A stretch of DNA of 23,028 nucleotides, taken from positions 1 through 23,028 of the forward strand of contig CAMLKW010000047.1 of assembly GCA_946480605.1 (NCBI GenBank), in the 5' to 3' direction. Both the position numbers and the translations under genes were made by a program. The notes under the pieces were generated by a model. That model made no database searches, was not told where the DNA came from, and saw only the letters and a program-made list of their open reading frames with translations. The stretch comes from an uncultured Roseateles sp. GTDB lineage: Bacteria; Pseudomonadota; Gammaproteobacteria; Burkholderiales; Burkholderiaceae. Within the stretch, counting starts at the first letter, position 1, and each line of letters starts with the position of its first letter. This document shows, piece after piece, positions 2,237 to 19,431 of the stretch.

Positions 2237-3876
2237 CGACAAGCACCACCCTGGCGCAGCGCCTCGTCGACGCGCTGCTGGCGCGCGGCGCGCGCGAGAT
2301 CTTCGGCATCCCGGGCGACTTCGCGCTGCCGCTGTTCCGCGAGATCGAGCGCGACGGCCGCCTGCCCATCCTGACGCTGGCGCACGAGCCCGGCGTGGGC
2401 TTCGCCGCCGACGCCACGGCGCGCGTGCGTGGCGGCCTGGGCGTGGCCGCCGTGACCTATGGCGCCGGTGCGCTCAACCTCGTCAATGCGGTGGCCGGCG
2501 CCTATGCCGAGCGCGTGCCGCTGGTGGTGCTGTCCGGCGCACCGGCCGCGCACGAGGCCGTCAGCGGCCTGCTGCTGCACCACCAGGTCAAGCAGCTCGA
2601 CTCGCAGTGGCGGCTCTTCGACGAGATCACCTGCGACCGCGCCCGGCTGGACGACCTGGAGCGCGCGCCGCAGGCCGTCGCCCGCGTGCTGGACAACGCG
2701 TTGCTGCGCTCGCGGCCGGTCTACCTGGAGATCCCGCGCGACCTGCCCGGCCGGCCCTGCGCCGAGGTGCCCGCACCCGCACCGCGGCGCTGGGACGCCG
2801 AGCGCGTGGCCGCCTGCGCGGACGAGCTGCTCGCGCGGCTGCGCGTGGCGCGCGACCCGCTGCTGGTCGTCGGCGTCGAGGTGCGGCGCTACGGCCTGGA
2901 GGCGCGCGTGGCCGAGCTCGCGCGGCGGCTGGGCCTGCCGGTGCTGACCAGCTTCATGGGTCGCGGCCTGCTGGCGGACGCGGACCTGCCGCTGGCGGGG
3001 ACCTATCTGGGCCTGGCCGGCGACCCCGAGCTGAGCCGGCGCGTCGAAGCCTCCGACGCCTTGCTGCTGCTGGGCGTCATCGTGTCGGACACCAACTTCG
3101 CCGTGTCGGCGCGGCGCATCGACTTCCGCCATGCGCTGGTGGCCTACGACGACGAGGTGCGCGTGGGCCACCACGTCTACCCCGAGCTGCCGCTGGCCGC
3201 GCTGGTCGATGCGCTGCTGGAACGCTGCCCGCTGCCGCGCGTGGCCGTCGTCGCGCCCCCCGCGCCGCCGGCCTACCCGCAGGGGCTGGTGGAGGACGAG
3301 GCCGCCGTCGAGCCCGCCGACATTGCCTGCGCGATCAACGACGTGTTCGACCGCCAAGGCGCCATGCCCATCGCCTGCGACGTCGGCGACTGCCTGTTCA
3401 CCGCCATGGCCGTGCGGCCCACGGCGCTGCTGGCGCCGGGCTACTACGCCACCATGGGCTACGGCGTGCCGGCCGGCCTGGGGCTGCAGCGCGCCAGCGG
3501 CCAGCGCCCGCTCATCCTGGTCGGCGACGGCGCCTTCCAGATGACGGGCTGGGAGGTCGGCCACGCCGCGCGCCTGGGCCTCGACCCCATCGTCATCGTC
3601 TTCAACAACGGCGGCTGGGAGATGCTGCGCAGCTTCATGCCCGAGGGCGGCTTCCACGACCTCGGTGCCTGGGACTTCGCGGCCATGGCCGCCGGCATGG
3701 GCGGCGACGGCTACACGGTGCACACGCGCGCCGAGCTGGGCGCGGCGCTGCGCCAGGCGCTGGCCACGCGGGGCAGTTTCCAGCTGCTCGACGTCCGGCT
3801 CGCGCCGGGGGCGCGCTCGCCCACGTTGCAGCGCTTCGTGCAAGCGGTGCGGCGCCTGTCCATGCCCGAAGCTTGA
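2233..3876 (+). CDS. Thiamine-diphosphate 2-oxo acid decarboxylase (indolepyruvate/phenylpyruvate type)
   Basis: This 547-residue protein has the three-domain layout of the pyruvate/indolepyruvate/phenylpyruvate decarboxylase family. Catalytic signatures seen are Asp29 (IPGDF), the cofactor-activating Glu52 (AHEPG), the His116-His117 dyad (LLLHHQ), the ThDP/Mg motif starting GDG at 431-433 and closing NN at 458-459, and Glu463 (GGWEML). The HH dyad and late Glu separate it from acetolactate synthase or benzoylformate decarboxylase-like enzymes. It probably decarboxylates an aromatic 2-oxo acid, but the substrate is not readable from sequence. It overlaps ubiT by ATGA and is therefore probably co-transcribed with the anaerobic ubiquinone genes, an uncommon association. 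The last codon lies inside an FNR-like box serving nrdD. Confidence 0.85.
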   Translation: MTTSTTLAQRLVDALLARGAREIFGIPGDFALPLFREIERDGRLPILTLAHEPGVGFAADATARVRGGLGVAAVTYGAGALNLVNAVAGAYAERVPLVVLSGAPAAHEAVSGLLLHHQVKQLDSQWRLFDEITCDRARLDDLERAPQAVARVLDNALLRSRPVYLEIPRDLPGRPCAEVPAPAPRRWDAERVAACADELLARLRVARDPLLVVGVEVRRYGLEARVAELARRLGLPVLTSFMGRGLLADADLPLAGTYLGLAGDPELSRRVEASDALLLLGVIVSDTNFAVSARRIDFRHALVAYDDEVRVGHHVYPELPLAALVDALLERCPLPRVAVVAPPAPPAYPQGLVEDEAAVEPADIACAINDVFDRQGAMPIACDVGDCLFTAMAVRPTALLAPGYYATMGYGVPAGLGLQRASGQRPLILVGDGAFQMTGWEVGHAARLGLDPIVIVFNNGGWEMLRSFMPEGGFHDLGAWDFAAMAAGMGGDGYTVHTRAELGAALRQALATRGSFQLLDVRLAPGARSPTLQRFVQAVRRLSMPEA

Positions 3877-3886
3877 TCTGGTTCAA
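3873..3886 (+). promoter_or_regulatory. FNR/Dnr-type box upstream of nrdD
   Basis: The sequence TTGAT-CTGG-TTCAA differs from the FNR/Dnr consensus (TTGAT-N4-ATCAA) at one base. Centred at 3879.5, it would place a class II start site (-41.5) near 3921, with a weak -10 (CACACT) at 3909-3914. It overlaps the stop codon of the preceding decarboxylase gene. The spacer resembles those of the boxes at 15329 and 19418. Confidence 0.75.
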
Positions 3887-3968: not shown

Positions 3969-5978
3969 ATGTCCCTCTATCCCCAGCAGGTGGTGAAGCG
4001 CGATGGCCGGTTGCAGGCCTTCGACGCGAACAAGATCACGCAGGCCCTGGCCGCCGCCGGCCGTGCCAGTGGCGAGTTCGGCGACGACGAGGCGCGCTGG
4101 CTGACCGAGAACGGCGTGCTGCCCGAGTTGATGGCCCGCACGCTGCCCGGCATCGAGCAGATCCAGGACGCCGTCGAGTCCACGCTGTTCGGCGCCGGCT
4201 GGCGCAAGACGCTGCGTGCCTACACGGTCTACCGTGAGCAGCACCGCCGCCTGCGCGACGCGCGCCAGACGCTGGTGGACGTGCAGGCCACGATGGACGA
4301 ATACCTGCAGCAGCGCGACTGGCGCATCAACGCCAATGCCAACCAGGGCTGGAGCCTGGGCGGGCTCATCCTCAACGTGTCGGGCAAGGTGGTCGCCAAT
4401 TACTGGCTGGACCATGTCTACCCGCCCGAGGTGGGGCAGGCCCACCGCGAGGCCGACATCCACATCCACGACCTCGACATGCTCAGCGGCTACTGCGCCG
4501 GCTGGAGCCTGCGCACGCTGCTGCATGAAGGCCTGAACGGCGTGCCGGGCAAGGTGGAGGCGGGGCCGCCCAAGCACTTGTCCAGCGCCGTGGGCCAGAT
4601 CGTCAACTTCCTGGGCACGCTGCAGAACGAGTGGGCCGGCGCCCAGGCCTTCTCCAGCTTCGACACCTACCTGGCGCCCTACGTCCGCAAGGACGGCCTG
4701 AGCTACGAGCAGGTGCGCCAGTGCCTGCAGGAGCTGATCTACAACCTCAACGTGCCCTCGCGCTGGGGCACGCAGACGCCGTTCACCAACCTCACGTTCG
4801 ACTGGACCTGCCCGGCCGACCTCGCCGAGCAGGTGCCCGTCATCGCCGGTGAGGAGCAGCCCTTCTGCTACGGCGAGCTGCAGGCCGAGATGGACCTCAT
4901 CAACCGCGCCTACATCGCCGTGATGACGGCCGGCGACGCCAAGGGCCGGGCCTTCACCTTCCCCATCCCGACCTACAACATCACCAAGGACTTCGACTGG
5001 GCCCACCCGAACACCGAGGCCTTGTTCGAGATGACGGCGCGCTACGGCCTGCCGTACTTCCAGAACTTCCTGAACTCCGACCTGGAGCCGCAGATGGTGC
5101 GCTCCATGTGCTGCCGCCTGCAGCTGGACCTGCGCGAGCTGCTCAAGCGCGGCAACGGCCTGTTCGGCTCGGCGGAGCAGACGGGGTCGGTGGGTGTGGT
5201 GACGGTGAACTGCGCGCGGCTGGGCTACGTCTACGCCGGCGACGAGCCCGCGCTGCTGGCGCGGCTGGACCGTTTGCTGGAACTGGGCCGCGACAGCCTG
5301 GAGCTCAAGCGCAAGCTCATCCAGCGGCTGATCGACCAAGGCCTGTTCCCGTACACGCGCCGCTACCTGCGCACGCTGCGCAACCACTTCTCCACACTGG
5401 GCGTGAATGGCATCAACGAGATGGTGCGCAACTTCACGCGCGACGCGCACGACATCACCGCGCCGGAGGGCCATGCGCTGGCCGTGCGGCTGCTGGACCA
5501 TGTGCGCGCCCGCATGGTGGAGTTCCAGGAGCAGACCGGCCACCTCTACAACCTGGAGGCCACGCCGGCCGAGGGCACGACCTACCGCTTCGCCAAGGAG
5601 GACCGGCGCCGCTGGCCCGCCATCCTGCAGGCCGGCAGCGACGCCAACCCCTACTACACGAACAGCTCGCAGCTGCCGGTCGGCTTCACCGACGATCCCT
5701 TCGAGGCGCTGGAGCGCCAGGAGGAGCTGCAGCGCAAGTACACCGGCGGCACGGTGCTGCACCTCTACATGAGCGAGCGCATCAGCTCGGCCACCGCCTG
5801 CCGCGAGCTGGTCAAGCGCGCGCTGTCGAACCACCGCCTGCCCTACGTCACCGTGACGCCGACCTTCTCGATCTGCCCGACCCACGGCTACCTGGCCGGC
5901 CACCACGAGTTCTGCCCCCACTGCGACGCCGAGCGGCTGGCCGCCAAGCGCCGCGCATCCGAATCCCAACCCGCCTGA
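3969..5978 (+). CDS. nrdD: Anaerobic (class III) ribonucleoside-triphosphate reductase, catalytic body lacking the glycyl-radical segment
   Basis: This 669-residue protein starts with an ATP-cone (about residues 5-90; VVKRDGRLQAFDANKI), followed by the ten-stranded barrel typical of class III reductases, with Cys381-Cys382 (RSMCCRL) and the GSVGVVTVN segment. The C-terminus has the structural zinc site Cys636-x2-His639 and Cys649-x2-Cys652. In ordinary NrdD the glycyl-radical loop (RVxGY) follows this zinc site directly; here the frame ends 17 residues after Cys652, and the motif is in the next small gene in another frame. Known role: formate-dependent reduction of ribonucleotides to deoxyribonucleotides without oxygen. 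Upstream FNR-like and double NrdR-like boxes suggest low-oxygen activation and dATP-sensitive repression. Confidence 0.95.
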   Translation: MSLYPQQVVKRDGRLQAFDANKITQALAAAGRASGEFGDDEARWLTENGVLPELMARTLPGIEQIQDAVESTLFGAGWRKTLRAYTVYREQHRRLRDARQTLVDVQATMDEYLQQRDWRINANANQGWSLGGLILNVSGKVVANYWLDHVYPPEVGQAHREADIHIHDLDMLSGYCAGWSLRTLLHEGLNGVPGKVEAGPPKHLSSAVGQIVNFLGTLQNEWAGAQAFSSFDTYLAPYVRKDGLSYEQVRQCLQELIYNLNVPSRWGTQTPFTNLTFDWTCPADLAEQVPVIAGEEQPFCYGELQAEMDLINRAYIAVMTAGDAKGRAFTFPIPTYNITKDFDWAHPNTEALFEMTARYGLPYFQNFLNSDLEPQMVRSMCCRLQLDLRELLKRGNGLFGSAEQTGSVGVVTVNCARLGYVYAGDEPALLARLDRLLELGRDSLELKRKLIQRLIDQGLFPYTRRYLRTLRNHFSTLGVNGINEMVRNFTRDAHDITAPEGHALAVRLLDHVRARMVEFQEQTGHLYNLEATPAEGTTYRFAKEDRRRWPAILQAGSDANPYYTNSSQLPVGFTDDPFEALERQEELQRKYTGGTVLHLYMSERISSATACRELVKRALSNHRLPYVTVTPTFSICPTHGYLAGHHEFCPHCDAERLAAKRRASESQPA

Positions 5979-5983
5979 AGGAG
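5978..5983 (+). promoter_or_regulatory. Shine-Dalgarno of the separate glycyl-radical gene
   Basis: AAGGAG begins on the last base of the nrdD stop codon and lies 8 bases before the ATG at 5992. This near-ideal site argues that the small downstream gene is translated on its own and is not a fragment created by a sequencing error. Confidence 0.85.
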
Positions 5984-5991
5984 AACACCCC

Positions 5992-6180
5992 ATGAACGCT
6001 GTCATCGAACGCCAAGAACAGGACATCACGCTGCTTGATGAGGAACGCCAGCGCTGCGAGGTCTGGACAAGAGTGATGGGCTACCACCGCCCGGTCGCGT
6101 CCTTCAACATCGGCAAGCAGGGCGAGTTCGCCGAAAGAGTCCACTTCGTGGAAGCTCCTCGCCCATGCTCGCCGCGCTGA
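5992..6180 (+). CDS. Separate glycyl-radical subunit of anaerobic ribonucleotide reductase
   Basis: This 62-residue protein contains CEVWTRVMGYHRPV followed by FNIGKQGEF and ERVHF, the extreme C-terminal segment of class III reductases. Gly30 in RVMGY is the predicted glycyl-radical residue. It is in a different frame from the upstream nrdD body, 13 bases after its stop, with a strong Shine-Dalgarno. The N-terminal 20 residues (acidic, helical in appearance) are extra relative to a normal NrdD tail and could mediate docking. The simplest reading is a two-chain enzyme, radical-loaded by NrdG encoded downstream, similar in principle to GrcA/YfiD for pyruvate formate-lyase. Dedicated versus spare radical domain cannot be told from sequence, but the body has no such motif of its own. 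Confidence 0.88.
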   Translation: MNAVIERQEQDITLLDEERQRCEVWTRVMGYHRPVASFNIGKQGEFAERVHFVEAPRPCSPR

Positions 6181-6208
6181 ACGCGGGCGAGCCTGGTCCG
6201 GGACCGCG

Positions 6209-6226
6209 CTGCGGCCTGGGCCGCAG
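6209..6226 (+). other. Stem-loop between the nrdD pair and nrdG
   Basis: CTGCGGCC and GGCCGCAG form a perfect inverted repeat separated by two bases. It lies in the 113-bp spacer before the inferred nrdG start. No T-run follows, so it is not a typical intrinsic terminator; it may be an mRNA-stabilising or attenuating hairpin. Confidence 0.4.
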
Positions 6227-6276
6227 AGCTTCGGCAGGCACAGGCCGTCCACTGGACGCCCTGTGTCCGGCCTCAG

Positions 6277-6365
6277 CCCCCGAGGGGACGGCGATGCTTG
6301 CGGCATCAAGCCGCAAGCACATCGCCAAGCCGGGCCGGCTTGGGAACGGCCCGGCGCTCGGCCCG
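6277..6365 (+). repeat. 89-bp interspersed repeat, copy A
   Basis: This segment matches the reverse complement of 21670-21758 at most positions, by eye roughly 85-90%. It holds a hairpin with TGCTTGCGGC pairing with GCCGCAAGCA around loop ATCAA, and a second stem (CCAAGCC/GGCTTGG). In copy B the first stem reads CTCGCGG/CCGCGAG, so a base pair changed on both sides at once. The repeat contains a GAGGGG ribosome-binding-like run and an ATG that appears to start nrdG. Confidence 0.8.
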
Positions 6366-7067
6366 CATGGAGTAGCGAGTGATGCGCTCGCCGTCGCCGG
6401 CCTGCAGCCCTTCAGCAGCGTCGACTTCCCCGGCCGGCTGGCCGCGGTGGTCTTCCTGCAGGGCTGCCCCTGGCGTTGCGGCTACTGCCACAACGCCGAC
6501 CTGCAGCCCAAGGGCTCGGGTGCCGGCCCGCGCTGGCCCGAGCTGCGCGACTGGCTGGCGCGCCGGCTGGGCCGGTTGGACGGCGTCGTGTTCAGCGGCG
6601 GCGAACCCACGCTGGACCCGGCGCTGCCGGCGGCCCTCGCCGAGCTGCGCGCCATGGGCTATGCGCTGGGCCTGCACACCGCGGGCCTGGCGCCGAAGCG
6701 GCTCGCGCCGCTGCTGCCGCTGCTCGATTGGGTGGGCCTTGACATCAAGGCCGCGCCCACCGATGCCGCGCTGCACGACCGCATCACCGGCCGGCGCGGC
6801 AGCAGCCGCGCGGTGCAGGCGACGCTGGCGCTGCTGCGAGGCAGCGGTGTGGACTACGAATGCCGCAGCACCGTGCACCCGCGCTGGTTCGGCGATGCCG
6901 ATTTGCTGCGCCTGGTGAGTGAACTGGCCGACGCGCCGCGGCATGTGCTGCAGGTGGCGCGCTTGCCCGACGAGGCGGGCGCGTTGCGCAGCCCGCTTGC
7001 CTGGCCTTCGGCGCCGCTGCTGGCTGCGGTGCGACGGATGCGGCCGGACCTGGGCCTGCGGGCTTGA
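6294..7067 (+). CDS. nrdG: NrdG, radical-SAM activase of anaerobic ribonucleotide reductase
   Basis: This is a radical-SAM protein of the NrdG/PflA type. The conserved core begins around residue 31 with GLQPFSSVDFPG, followed by the cluster motif Cys58-x3-Cys62-x2-Cys65 (GCPWRCGYCHN), FSGGEP for SAM binding, and LDWVGLDIKA. It uses a [4Fe-4S] cluster and S-adenosylmethionine to make the glycyl radical of NrdD, here presumably on the separate 62-residue chain. The nearest in-frame ATG before the core is at 6294, inside the 89-bp repeat, preceded by GAGGGG at a suitable distance; this gives 257 residues with about 30 extra at the N-terminus, about 24 of them repeat-encoded. An ATG at 6165 is also in frame but overlaps the upstream gene. 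A non-canonical start nearer the core cannot be excluded. Confidence 0.9.
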   Translation: MLAASSRKHIAKPGRLGNGPALGPHGVASDALAVAGLQPFSSVDFPGRLAAVVFLQGCPWRCGYCHNADLQPKGSGAGPRWPELRDWLARRLGRLDGVVFSGGEPTLDPALPAALAELRAMGYALGLHTAGLAPKRLAPLLPLLDWVGLDIKAAPTDAALHDRITGRRGSSRAVQATLALLRGSGVDYECRSTVHPRWFGDADLLRLVSELADAPRHVLQVARLPDEAGALRSPLAWPSAPLLAAVRRMRPDLGLRA

Positions 7068-10333: not shown

Positions 10334-11532
10334 TCATGGCGGCCCCCGGCAGCCGGCTTGCCGCACCGGCAGCAGCGCGCCAAGCGCCGGCACATCCGCT
10401 GCACGTTGTTCCACCACGCGCCAGCGCCCCTGGCAGTGGGGGCAGGTGTTGATCTCGATGCTCGCCACCCGCTTCATGAAGGCCCGGGCGTCTTCTTGCG
10501 CCTGCGGGTTGGCCGCCGGCATGGCCAGCAGTCGCCGCGCTTGGCGCAGCCGCTCGGCCTTGGCGCATGGCGCCAGCAGCCCGTAGTGGCGGATGCGCTT
10601 GAAGCCGCCGGGCAGCACGTGTTGCAGCAGCCGCGCGATGAACTGCTCGCCCGGCATGGCGATCGTGCGCTTGCCGCCGCGGTCGTCGGCGCGCACGCGC
10701 AGTCGCACGCTCTGGCCGGCGATGCCGACCAGCCGCTCATTGCCGATGGCCGTGCGGTGGGTGTAGCGGCTGAGGTAGTCCAGCACCGCCGCTGGCCCGG
10801 CCAGCGGGGTCTTGGCGTAGACCACCCAGTCATGGCGCCACAGGACCGCTCGGCGTTCGCGGCGCGCGTGCGCATCGGCCGGGTCGCGTGGCAGCTCGCC
10901 TGCGGCTTCGGCCGCTTGCAGCGCCGCCATGAACTTGCCTCGGAAGACGCGGCAGAGCGCGTGCACCGGGAACAGGAAGCGCGCGCTGCGTGTGGGGCGA
11001 CCCACGTCGTCGTCGCCGAGTCCGCGTCCAGCCGCATCGCGCCACAGGCCATCAGCGCATGCACGTGAAAGTGGCGCCGCAAGTCCTGCGTCCAGGTGTG
11101 CAAGACCAGCGTGAAGGCTGGCGTGCCGCCGAGCCAGCGCGGGTTGGCGGCGAAGTCGGTGAGCGTGGCAGCCGTCGCGTGCATCAACGTGTCGTACACC
11201 CAGCGCGCATGGGTTGCGGCCAGCGCGTTGAGTTCGTGCGGCAGGGTGAAGACGAGGTGGCAGTAGGGCACGTTGAGCAACTCGCCCAGTCGCGCGGCAC
11301 GCCAGGCGTCGCGCTGGCGGCTCTGGCACTGCGGGCAGTGGCGGTTGCGGCAGCTGTGCCAGCGCCAGTGCTCGGCTGCGCAGCCATCGCAGCGCAGCCG
11401 CTCGCCGCCCAGCGCTGGCGTGCGGCAGGCGAGGATGGCGCGCCAGGCGCGGGCCTGTGCGCTGCTCAGGGTGTGCGTGCGCAGGTACTCGGCGCCGAAG
11501 CGGCGCAGAACCTCGGCCAGCGGGGTGGCCAT
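10334..11532 (-). pseudogene. IS91-family transposase, frameshifted
   Basis: The first frame carries the N-terminal zinc-binding region (CDGC, then CRNRHCPQCQSRQR) and the HUH motif HFHVHAL. Around 10994-10997, a run of four G on the plus strand (C on the coding strand), the reading must shift to the frame continuing SARFLFPVHALCRVFRGKF, then the paired tyrosines DYLSRYTHRTAIGNERL and a C-terminal zinc pair CPHC. One extra C in that run would restore a continuous protein of about 400 residues. The HUH and tyrosine catalytic parts are therefore in separate frames, so the gene is either inactive or needs ribosomal slippage. It starts 22 bases after the recombinase stop. Confidence 0.88.
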
Positions 11533-11554
11533 GGTGGGCTCGGCGAGGCTGGCG

Positions 11555-12433
11555 TCAGTGCAGCGTGCTTAGCAGGGCCAGGGGTTGGCGGCGGGCCAAG
11601 TCGGGGGCATCGGGGCGGGCCAGGTGCAGGTAGCGCATGGTGGTGCTGATGTGGCTGTGGCCCAGCCATTGCTGCAGGTTGTGCAGGTCCACCCCGGCCT
11701 CCAGCAGGTGGGTGGCGTAGCAGTGGCGCAGGGTGTGGATGCCGCCGCGCTTGGTGATGCCGGCGTGAGCGCAGGCGCGGCGGTACCAGCGCTGGGCGAC
11801 GCAGATGTCCAGTGCCAGCATGGGATCGCGCTGCGAGGTGAACAGCCAACCGTGCGGACGCCCGACGAGCCACCAGGCGCGCGCCACGGCGAGGGTGTCG
11901 GGGCTCAGCGGCACGAGGCGGTCCTTGGCGCCCTTGCCCTGCACGACGTGGATGCACATGCGGTCGGCGTGGCTGTCGATGTGTTCGACGCGCAGGCGGC
12001 ACAGTTCGGACACGCGCAGCCCGGTGCCGTAGGCCAGTTGCAGGAAGCTGCGGGCCTTGGCGTGGCAGGCGGCGTCGAACAGGCGGGTGAGTTCGGCGCG
12101 GGCAAGGATCTCGGGCAGGGCCTGCGGGGCCGGACCCAGAGGTATCTGGAACTGGTCGTTCGACTCCAACACGATGCGGTACAGGAAGCGGAAGGCGCAG
12201 CCGTACTGGTTGAGCGTGGAGCGCGAGAGATGGCACTCACGCAGCAGGTGCAGCAGGTAGGCCTGCACTTCATCGGCGCTGAGCAGGTCCGGGCTGCGGT
12301 GGTAGTGCCGCGCCAGCCGGGCCACGGCTTCGATGTAGCTCTCTTGCGTGCGCTCGGACATGCCGCGCAGTTGCAGGGCGTCCAGCATGCGCTGGCGCAG
12401 CGGGGTGATCGGGGTGGGTGCGAAGGTGACCAT
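11555..12433 (-). CDS. XerC/phage-type tyrosine recombinase of the IS91-like element
   Basis: This intact 292-residue protein has an N-terminal SAM-like core-binding domain (about residues 10-95) and a C-terminal catalytic domain with GTGLRVSELCRLR (first Arg), GKGAKDRLVPL (Lys), HTLRHCYATHLL (His and Arg), WLGHSHISTTMRY (His and nucleophilic Tyr). It lacks the extra insertion that marks integron integrases, so I do not call it IntI. A good AGGAG lies seven bases before the ATG. Such recombinases accompany IS91-family transposases in a number of proteobacterial elements; what each contributes to movement is not settled. GC content resembles the host more than the small cassettes. Confidence 0.88.
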   Translation of the reverse strand: MVTFAPTPITPLRQRMLDALQLRGMSERTQESYIEAVARLARHYHRSPDLLSADEVQAYLLHLLRECHLSRSTLNQYGCAFRFLYRIVLESNDQFQIPLGPAPQALPEILARAELTRLFDAACHAKARSFLQLAYGTGLRVSELCRLRVEHIDSHADRMCIHVVQGKGAKDRLVPLSPDTLAVARAWWLVGRPHGWLFTSQRDPMLALDICVAQRWYRRACAHAGITKRGGIHTLRHCYATHLLEAGVDLHNLQQWLGHSHISTTMRYLHLARPDAPDLARRQPLALLSTLH

Positions 12434-15328: not shown

Positions 15329-15342
15329 TTGAACTGCATCAA
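15329..15342 (+). promoter_or_regulatory. FNR/Dnr-type box upstream of the nnrS operon
   Basis: TTGAA-CTGC-ATCAA has one departure from consensus. Its centre at 15335.5 predicts a class II start near 15377, 25 bases before the ATG at 15402. It lies just after the moaA stop and would drive the three-gene operon ending in the Dnr-like regulator. Confidence 0.72.
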
Positions 15343-19417: not shown

Positions 19418-19431
19418 TTGATCTGCTTCAA
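19418..19431 (-). promoter_or_regulatory. FNR/Dnr-type box upstream of the AsnC-like gene
   Basis: On the plus strand it reads TTGAT-CTGC-TTCAA, one mismatch from consensus. A class II position would put the start site about 2 bases before the ATG at 19381, implying a nearly leaderless mRNA or a different promoter geometry. Confidence 0.7.

Follow-up and report, generated by a model that had tools for sequence, protein, structure and literature searches.

Class III ribonucleotide reductases (RNRs), as described for Escherichia coli, phage T4, Thermotoga maritima and Prevotella copri, are one-chain enzymes, in which the radical glycine is located at the C-terminus of the same polypeptide, NrdD, that also forms the catalytic barrel. 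In the glycyl radical enzymes that are known to us, the radical glycine is part of the catalytic chain, whose cleavage by oxygen is irreversible. We describe here a 23,028-nucleotide stretch of DNA from an uncultured Roseateles sp. (contig CAMLKW010000047.1; the whole stretch is called the window), whose NrdD shares the fold, the ATP-cone, the active-site and zinc residues and the activase NrdG with these one-chain enzymes, while its radical glycine resides in the product of a separate gene. We consider it highly probable that this enzyme represents an obligate two-chain class III RNR, with a radical chain that acts in trans and has been taken up by phages.

Small free-standing glycyl-radical domains that complete a larger enzyme in trans are known for pyruvate formate-lyase, namely YfiD/GrcA and the phage-borne Y06I of T4 (PMC8683613). 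The section of Andorfer et al. 2021 cited here (PMC8683613) lists only YfiD and Y06I as validated spare parts and allows that others may exist. YfiD and Y06I replace the damaged end of an enzyme that possesses a radical domain itself, whereas the NrdD body of the window has no such domain to be replaced; a partner with a radical domain of its own, as is typical for GrcA/YfiD, was found in four Actinomycetota genomes (see below), but not in the window. The window's small chain is furthermore of the RNR type and not of the pyruvate formate-lyase type: together with 45 viral chains, it matches PF13597 (NRDD) and no other Pfam family (46/46), which rules out a GrcA-type origin. The split class II reductase NrdJa/NrdJb likewise distributes an RNR over two gene products (PMC9669993, in the part cited), but uses adenosylcobalamin, unlike the class III system of the window. 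Phage nrdD genes that are split by introns or inteins have already been described (PMC3653736, in the part cited). No description of a cellular split NrdD of the window's kind was found in the open-access literature that we searched, which does not establish its absence from print; sequence databases already label the small open reading frame (ORF) 'anaerobic ribonucleoside-triphosphate reductase'.

The body gene nrdD of the window (3969..5978, plus strand, frame 2) encodes 669 residues, which include the ATP-cone, the catalytic barrel and the zinc site and lack the glycyl-radical motif. It matches NF006126 with 1118 bits and PF13597 with 571.5 bits, the latter over profile positions 2-531 of 562. 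The ATP-cone domain (PF03477, 60.7 bits) comprises residues 7-93 (3987..4247), and the MCCR motif at residues 380-383 (5106..5117, followed by the finger-loop sequence GLFGS) is invariant in 45 aligned bodies, as are the columns of the presumed zinc site C636, H639, C649 and C652 (5874..5924), whose zinc role is taken from family knowledge. The protein ends 17 residues past this site, at residue 669, and thereby agrees in coordinates and length with a preliminary description of the locus, according to which NrdD stops just past its zinc site. An RVxGY motif elsewhere in the body, which that description had named as an observation that would speak against its proposal, did not appear: a motif scan of the 669 residues for R..G[YFW] gave no match.

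The radical motif is encoded by a gene of its own, in another frame, as had been claimed (5992..6180, plus strand, frame 0, 62 residues): RVMGY, or TRVMGY with the preceding threonine, lies at 6070..6084, with Gly30 as the presumed radical residue. This chain matches the tail of PF13597 (positions 531-562, 32.9 bits, curated cut-off 26.2), and we count it in favour of two chains that the profile matches of body and tail abut at position 531. The Shine-Dalgarno (SD) sequence AAGGAG reported earlier is present at 5978..5983, where it overlaps the TGA of the body and leaves eight bases to the ATG at 5992. Directly 3' of the small gene, an ORF on the plus strand (6165..7067) encodes the activase NrdG, with the radical S-adenosylmethionine motif CxxxCxxC and 170.4 bits to TIGR02495 (cut-off 131.15); it starts either at 6165 (300 residues, overlapping the small gene) or at 6294 (257 residues). 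An FNR/ANR/DNR-type box, TTGATCTGGTTCAA (3873..3886), is located 82 bp 5' of the nrdD start codon and shows one mismatch to TTGAT-N4-ATCAA, the consensus of such boxes; three boxes of this type were found in the window, compared with 0.06 expected from shuffles. In the protein databases, 7312 entries match the 62-residue chain at E<=0.001 within the length limits of the search, and the best 120 of these are 58-78 residues long.

NRDD domain, barrel fold, active-site cysteines, zinc-site residues and an NrdG partner, all features of class III RNRs, were found in the window, and only the RVxGY radical glycine is not on the same polypeptide but in the 62-residue chain. Judged by its sequence, the enzyme is a predicted two-chain variant of class III RNR and not a one-chain NrdD. 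A Foldseek search with the body model returned class III RNRs at all ranks from 1 to 36, with the enzymes of P. copri, S. thermophilus, T. maritima and T4 as best structural matches. MCCR instead of SCCR is the signature of the group NrdDh4 in the cited part of Aurelius et al. 2015 (PMC4493059), and the window's body carries it. In the finger loop, at whose tip NrdDh4 members have a phenylalanine, Leu398, not Phe399, aligns with the T. maritima isoleucine, a position for which the cited part of the same paper calls the homologous residue uncertain (PMC4493059). The related group NrdDh3 includes, according to that part, the thioredoxin-using NrdD of N. bacilliformis; by analogy, a protein rather than formate is a possible reductant of the window's enzyme.

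The split is conserved among relatives. Within the 80 nearest NrdD loci (the best 80 from named genomes, fetched with the body), 62 are split, 13 are fused and 5 have no tail, either because the contig ends too soon (L026, L044), because the tail lies on another contig (L068, L070) or because of truncation (L064). Fused relatives had been named beforehand as a finding that would argue against two genes, and such relatives do exist; they represent an alternative state within the same family, however, and are not evidence of an error in the window. Frames and gaps were surveyed in 87 sources, 84 of which gave rows (none for L064, L073 and L086); L085, whose YTRVMGY was missed by the tail pattern of this survey, is split by annotation. 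Over the 66 split sources, which include the window and three plasmids, the three frame relations between body and small ORF are spread 21/25/20, and the gaps range from -32 to +431 nt (one value of -1252, in L014, is a start-calling artefact). In the nearest relative (L001, body 95% identical), both ORFs share one frame with a stop between them, whereas they lie in different frames in the window, which indicates that the junction shifts its position without closing either ORF.

Each small gene usually has its own ribosome binding site. When the first in-frame ATG located no earlier than the end of the body was taken as the start, blind to SD sequences, an SD match of at least 5 nt was found in 50 of 65 small genes; the control rates are 4.1% (shuffled upstream sequence) and 5.2% (internal methionine codons of the body, 53/1016). 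The two genes are also separable. A DUF1508-like ORF (named by eye) lies between them in L016 and L040, and a 2.2-kb stretch in L279; in genome G738, the small chain is encoded beside NrdG and 9 kb away from the body; and in G328, G470, G482 and G483, body and tail are located on different contigs, the three of these that entered our tree forming one clade (support 99). On plasmid pHG1 of Cupriavidus necator H16 (RefSeq), three genes are annotated, which correspond to the body, the 66-codon nrdD gene H16_RS32675 and NrdG. Loci survey, SD test, separated genes, plasmid annotation and the phage copies described below thus provide strong comparative support for two separate chains, as first proposed from the window alone. 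Between body and tail-NrdG of G738 (L278, 997-12398), we noted by eye peptidase-U32-like, HemN-like and Crp/Fnr-like ORFs, an anaerobic gene cluster that resembles the window's surroundings.

We propose that the large chain supplies the ATP-cone, the barrel, the active-site cysteines and the zinc ribbon, and that the 62-residue chain contributes the radical glycine: it would dock on the zinc ribbon, and its loop would enter the barrel in the manner of the C-terminal loop of one-chain enzymes. NrdG would install the radical on the small chain, as gene order and knowledge of the family suggest. Both chains, each translated from its own ribosome binding site, would belong to one operon under FNR-type control. 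A separate and cheap radical part could act in trans, and some bacteria encode it away from the body. Exchange of the chain after oxygen cleavage, an idea put forward in the preliminary description, is made more plausible by the unlinked, prophage and phage copies. If this model is correct, the radical should be loadable, transferable, losable and replaceable in vitro as a separate reagent, and the arrangement could be the reason why the reductase of facultative denitrifiers stays usable after oxygen has inactivated it.

From the last zinc cysteine to the residue before EVWTR, 3 to 34 residues were counted in 13 fused forms; in split forms, a median of 15 residues follows the zinc cysteine (71 bodies), and a median of 22 residues of the small chain precedes the residue before EVWTR (64 chains).

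Several points weigh against the two-chain model. The small frame of the window is open for 45 codons 5' of the ATG at 5992, and the window's sequence, taken alone, could also give rise to a frameshift product. No SD match of 5 nt was found for 15 of the 65 small genes, and, as fused relatives exist, function does not require the split. The predicted docking draws on single-chain models of different proteins: the body model has a mean pLDDT (predicted local distance difference test score) of 82, but only 50-53 in zinc-region residues 631-650 when the body is modelled alone, whereas the matching zinc-region blocks of a fused Actinotalea homologue, in which strands follow in the tail, reach 84-85, a contrast that fits a small chain docking on the zinc ribbon. 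Finally, our figures on how common the break is stem from PF13597 searches of genomes drawn by class or order, drafts included, and from hand tallies of the resulting rows.

In this sample, 95 of 300 Burkholderiales genomes match PF13597. The textbook picture of class III RNR derives from one-chain enzymes, yet 76 of these 95 genomes show the break, and 17 contain fused forms only and 2 partial matches; body and small chain thus occur as separate genes in most, but not in all, Burkholderiales relatives, which answers in part the question raised earlier whether they always do. In 71 of the 76 genomes, the body ends at profile position 525-540, and the remaining five match in frame through one stop; G005 and G915, two of these five, score identically and are perhaps almost the same genome. 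The corresponding counts are 26 of 232 for Gammaproteobacteria (19 split, 5 fused, 2 fragments), 26 of 241 for Alphaproteobacteria (19 split, including G373, and 7 fused) and 57 of 198 for Actinomycetota (one of them a weak fragment); no split form was seen among the 57 Actinomycetota genomes with a PF13597 match. G373 (L102, 2900-3250) is a case apart: its E. coli-type NrdD has one in-frame TAG past the zinc site, followed by an ATG-started chain with RRITGYLVGT, which might reflect recoding of the stop, an error, or a split that arose independently.

The radical chain also occurs in phages. A scan of IMG/VR with the 62-residue chain yielded 66 loci (L104-L169), and a second scan with an alignment yielded 176 confirmed stretches, 80 of which were kept. 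Altogether, the 145 viral loci (L104-L169, L190-L268) represent 105 distinct contigs, 40 of them fetched twice, with 90 distinct 96-nt cores; at least 1000 bases upstream of the chain were available for 120 of the 145, so that upstream DNA is short for some. Within the retrieved DNA, tblastn with the window's proteins detected no body in 103 of the 105 contigs and NrdG in none. Of 40 whole viral records, which are 16-108 kb long and all contain the chain, 2 encode a body and 38 do not, and none of the 40 has an NrdG above the TIGR02495 cut-off (weak hits occur in one).

The phage chains have genes for structure, replication or lysis around them. Neighbours with a named PHROG match were found in 10 of 12 viral loci scanned (none in L117 and L150), comprising terminase, portal, tape measure, tail fibre, virion protein and DNA polymerase, with only a methyltransferase in L127; the chain of L149 is flanked by terminase and portal. 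The phrog_2 terminase, present in 13 of the 40 whole records, gives weak support, as 11 of 14 bacterial and archaeal control genomes match it as well. No common partner directly upstream of the phage chain emerged from a PHROG scan of 8 viral neighbours, which matched RusA-like and thymidylate kinase families once each, unknown families twice and nothing in four cases. Since the INPHARED phage collection gave two weak matches only, IMG/VR contigs, prophages and PHROGs are the basis of the phage evidence. Some viral records are ambiguous: the chains of L131 and L140 lie at contig ends, that of L169 is short, and host DNA may be present in IMG/VR contigs. All 46 chains named above (the window's and 45 viral ones) match phrog_4132, and 14 of them also phrog_487, which is named NrdD-like. 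This suggests that the radical chain of class III RNR belongs to phrog_4132, a family without assigned function, and would make this phage family a likely nucleotide-metabolism gene. Two phage records deserve mention on their own. L167 (1197-5135) encodes a split NrdD with a body without ATP-cone and a radical chain 2 kb apart, between which RuvC-like and lysozyme-like ORFs were recognized by eye. In L274 (4575-7001; record G527), the NrdD body has an in-frame insert of ~140 residues at the MCCR site, which appears to end, intein-like, with THN before a cysteine, and a separate radical chain follows 170 nt downstream.

Unlinked chains are found in bacteria, too. Extra copies, in part carried by prophages, occur at least in G300, G316, G400, G481, G974 and G985, all of which also encode a split body. 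Phage genes flank several of them: integrase and endolysin in L087, portal in L089, a repressor-like gene in L093, and endolysin with an Rz-like spanin in L277. No phage neighbour was recognized by eye at L276, one of the two G985 copies, and the single L091 neighbour that was scanned had no match. Plasmid pALVIN01 of Allochromatium vinosum carries a lone chain, and no body was found on it. A different type is present in four Actinomycetota genomes (G587, G599, G675 and G707; L269-L272), whose NrdD is fused and intact. The lone chain of these genomes, encoded at another site, bears an additional N-terminal region and the E. coli-type motif RRITGYLVGT; fused NrdD plus lone chain was also seen in Adlercreutzia and Paraeggerthella entries among the protein-search matches listed. 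With its YfiD-like layout, the Actinomycetota lone chain is a candidate for a spare part proper.

The lone chains of phages and prophages would most likely raise or restore the activity of the host enzyme, and hence the supply of deoxynucleoside triphosphates (dNTPs). The phage-borne, presumably trans-acting radical chain is the newest part of our finding. On balance, and by a narrow margin, we favour the broader view of the radical part as an exchangeable module that acts in trans. It may serve as an obligate subunit in much of the Pseudomonadota, as a stand-alone gene for recharging or boosting the host's body protein in phages and prophages, and, in the form of a different lone chain, as a spare part after oxygen damage in some Actinomycetota with an intact one-chain NrdD.

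Alternatively, the lone phage chains could act as decoys or inhibitors, by titrating NrdG away or by poisoning the reductase of the host. The whole viral records, of which 38 of 40 carry the chain without body and 0 of 40 have an NrdG over cut-off, would be in line with this, as the partner would be the host's and inhibition would need nothing beyond it. Phages usually gain from more dNTPs, however, and the glycine is kept as expected of a working radical site: when the search pattern left its position open, it was present in 53 of 53 viral chains, as well as in every one of the 66 loci from the first scan (one of the 46 nonredundant viral chains, L146, was omitted from the alignment). Moreover, T4 possesses a working spare part for pyruvate formate-lyase (PMC8683613, in the part cited). 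We thus regard a decoy function as unlikely and retain the boosting or restoring role as the preferred explanation of the phage copies.

A programmed frameshift or a stop read-through, which would yield a fused NrdD and leave the small ORF without the status of a gene, is a very improbable explanation of the break. It could draw on the open frame upstream of the small ATG and on the five Burkholderiales genomes that match the profile in frame through one TAG or TGA. The spread of frame relations, gaps of up to 431 nt, strong SD sites before most small ORFs, chains on different contigs or kilobases apart and the lone phage copies led us to reject it in favour of two separately translated chains.

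We consider it equally far-fetched that the body is dead or repurposed and the small chain a relic, although the activity of the enzyme in this particular strain is a prediction from its sequence. C176, C381 and C382 are invariant in the 45 aligned bodies, as are the zinc-site residues, and the glycine was present in 79 of 79 cellular chains when its position was left open. An alignment of 44 cellular chains has 14 invariant columns, the glycine among them; the rows of the chain alignments were picked by a T-R-V pattern, so that these three letters of the motif are not an independent result. NrdG adjoins, and an FNR-type box precedes the operon. Furthermore, Siedow et al. are said to have found in 1999 that the C. 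necator nrdD and nrdG genes are necessary for anaerobic growth, and nrdD of C. necator pHG1 is split. A pseudogene was rejected on the invariant residues, the retained glycine, the adjacent NrdG and the FNR-type box. A sequencing or assembly error that broke one ordinary nrdD gene, to which the frame change in the window might point, is practically negligible and was rejected, in agreement with the preliminary description, because independent records show the same break (62 of the 80 nearest loci, which differ in gap length and cover every frame relation, and complete plasmid records with separate annotated genes), in addition to the SD excess and the intervening genes that set the chains apart.

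The history of the split was traced in a tree of 106 bodies, built with a quick method and containing several long branches, on which the split label must change no fewer than 9 times; for 5 of these changes, branches with strong support leave no other choice. The fused Actinomycetota and Marinicaulis forms, which make up most of the 13 fused loci, nest inside the split Pseudomonadota (supports 87 and 97), which suggests a re-fusion in these groups. The tree left out L064, L102, L172, L173, L174, L176 and L180, owing to divergence or truncation, as well as L098 and L171, where no body was found; L099 and L100 were entered as split, as adjacent tails are present.

Actinomycetota NrdD matches showed a further peculiarity in G605, G709, G712, G720 and others, where they are interrupted within open frames of 900-1700 residues. 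These interruptions recur at profile positions of about 52, 154 and 252, and their pattern suggests several inteins.

Upstream of the window's nrdD operon, a member of the peptidase U32 family is encoded, and downstream an NnrS protein, surroundings that are consistent with anaerobic life. The other two FNR-type boxes are located at 15329-15342 and 19418-19431, the first of them just 5' of a nitronate monooxygenase-like gene, which is followed by nnrS. ORFs for an IS91-type transposase and a phage integrase adjoin each other at 10477-12433.

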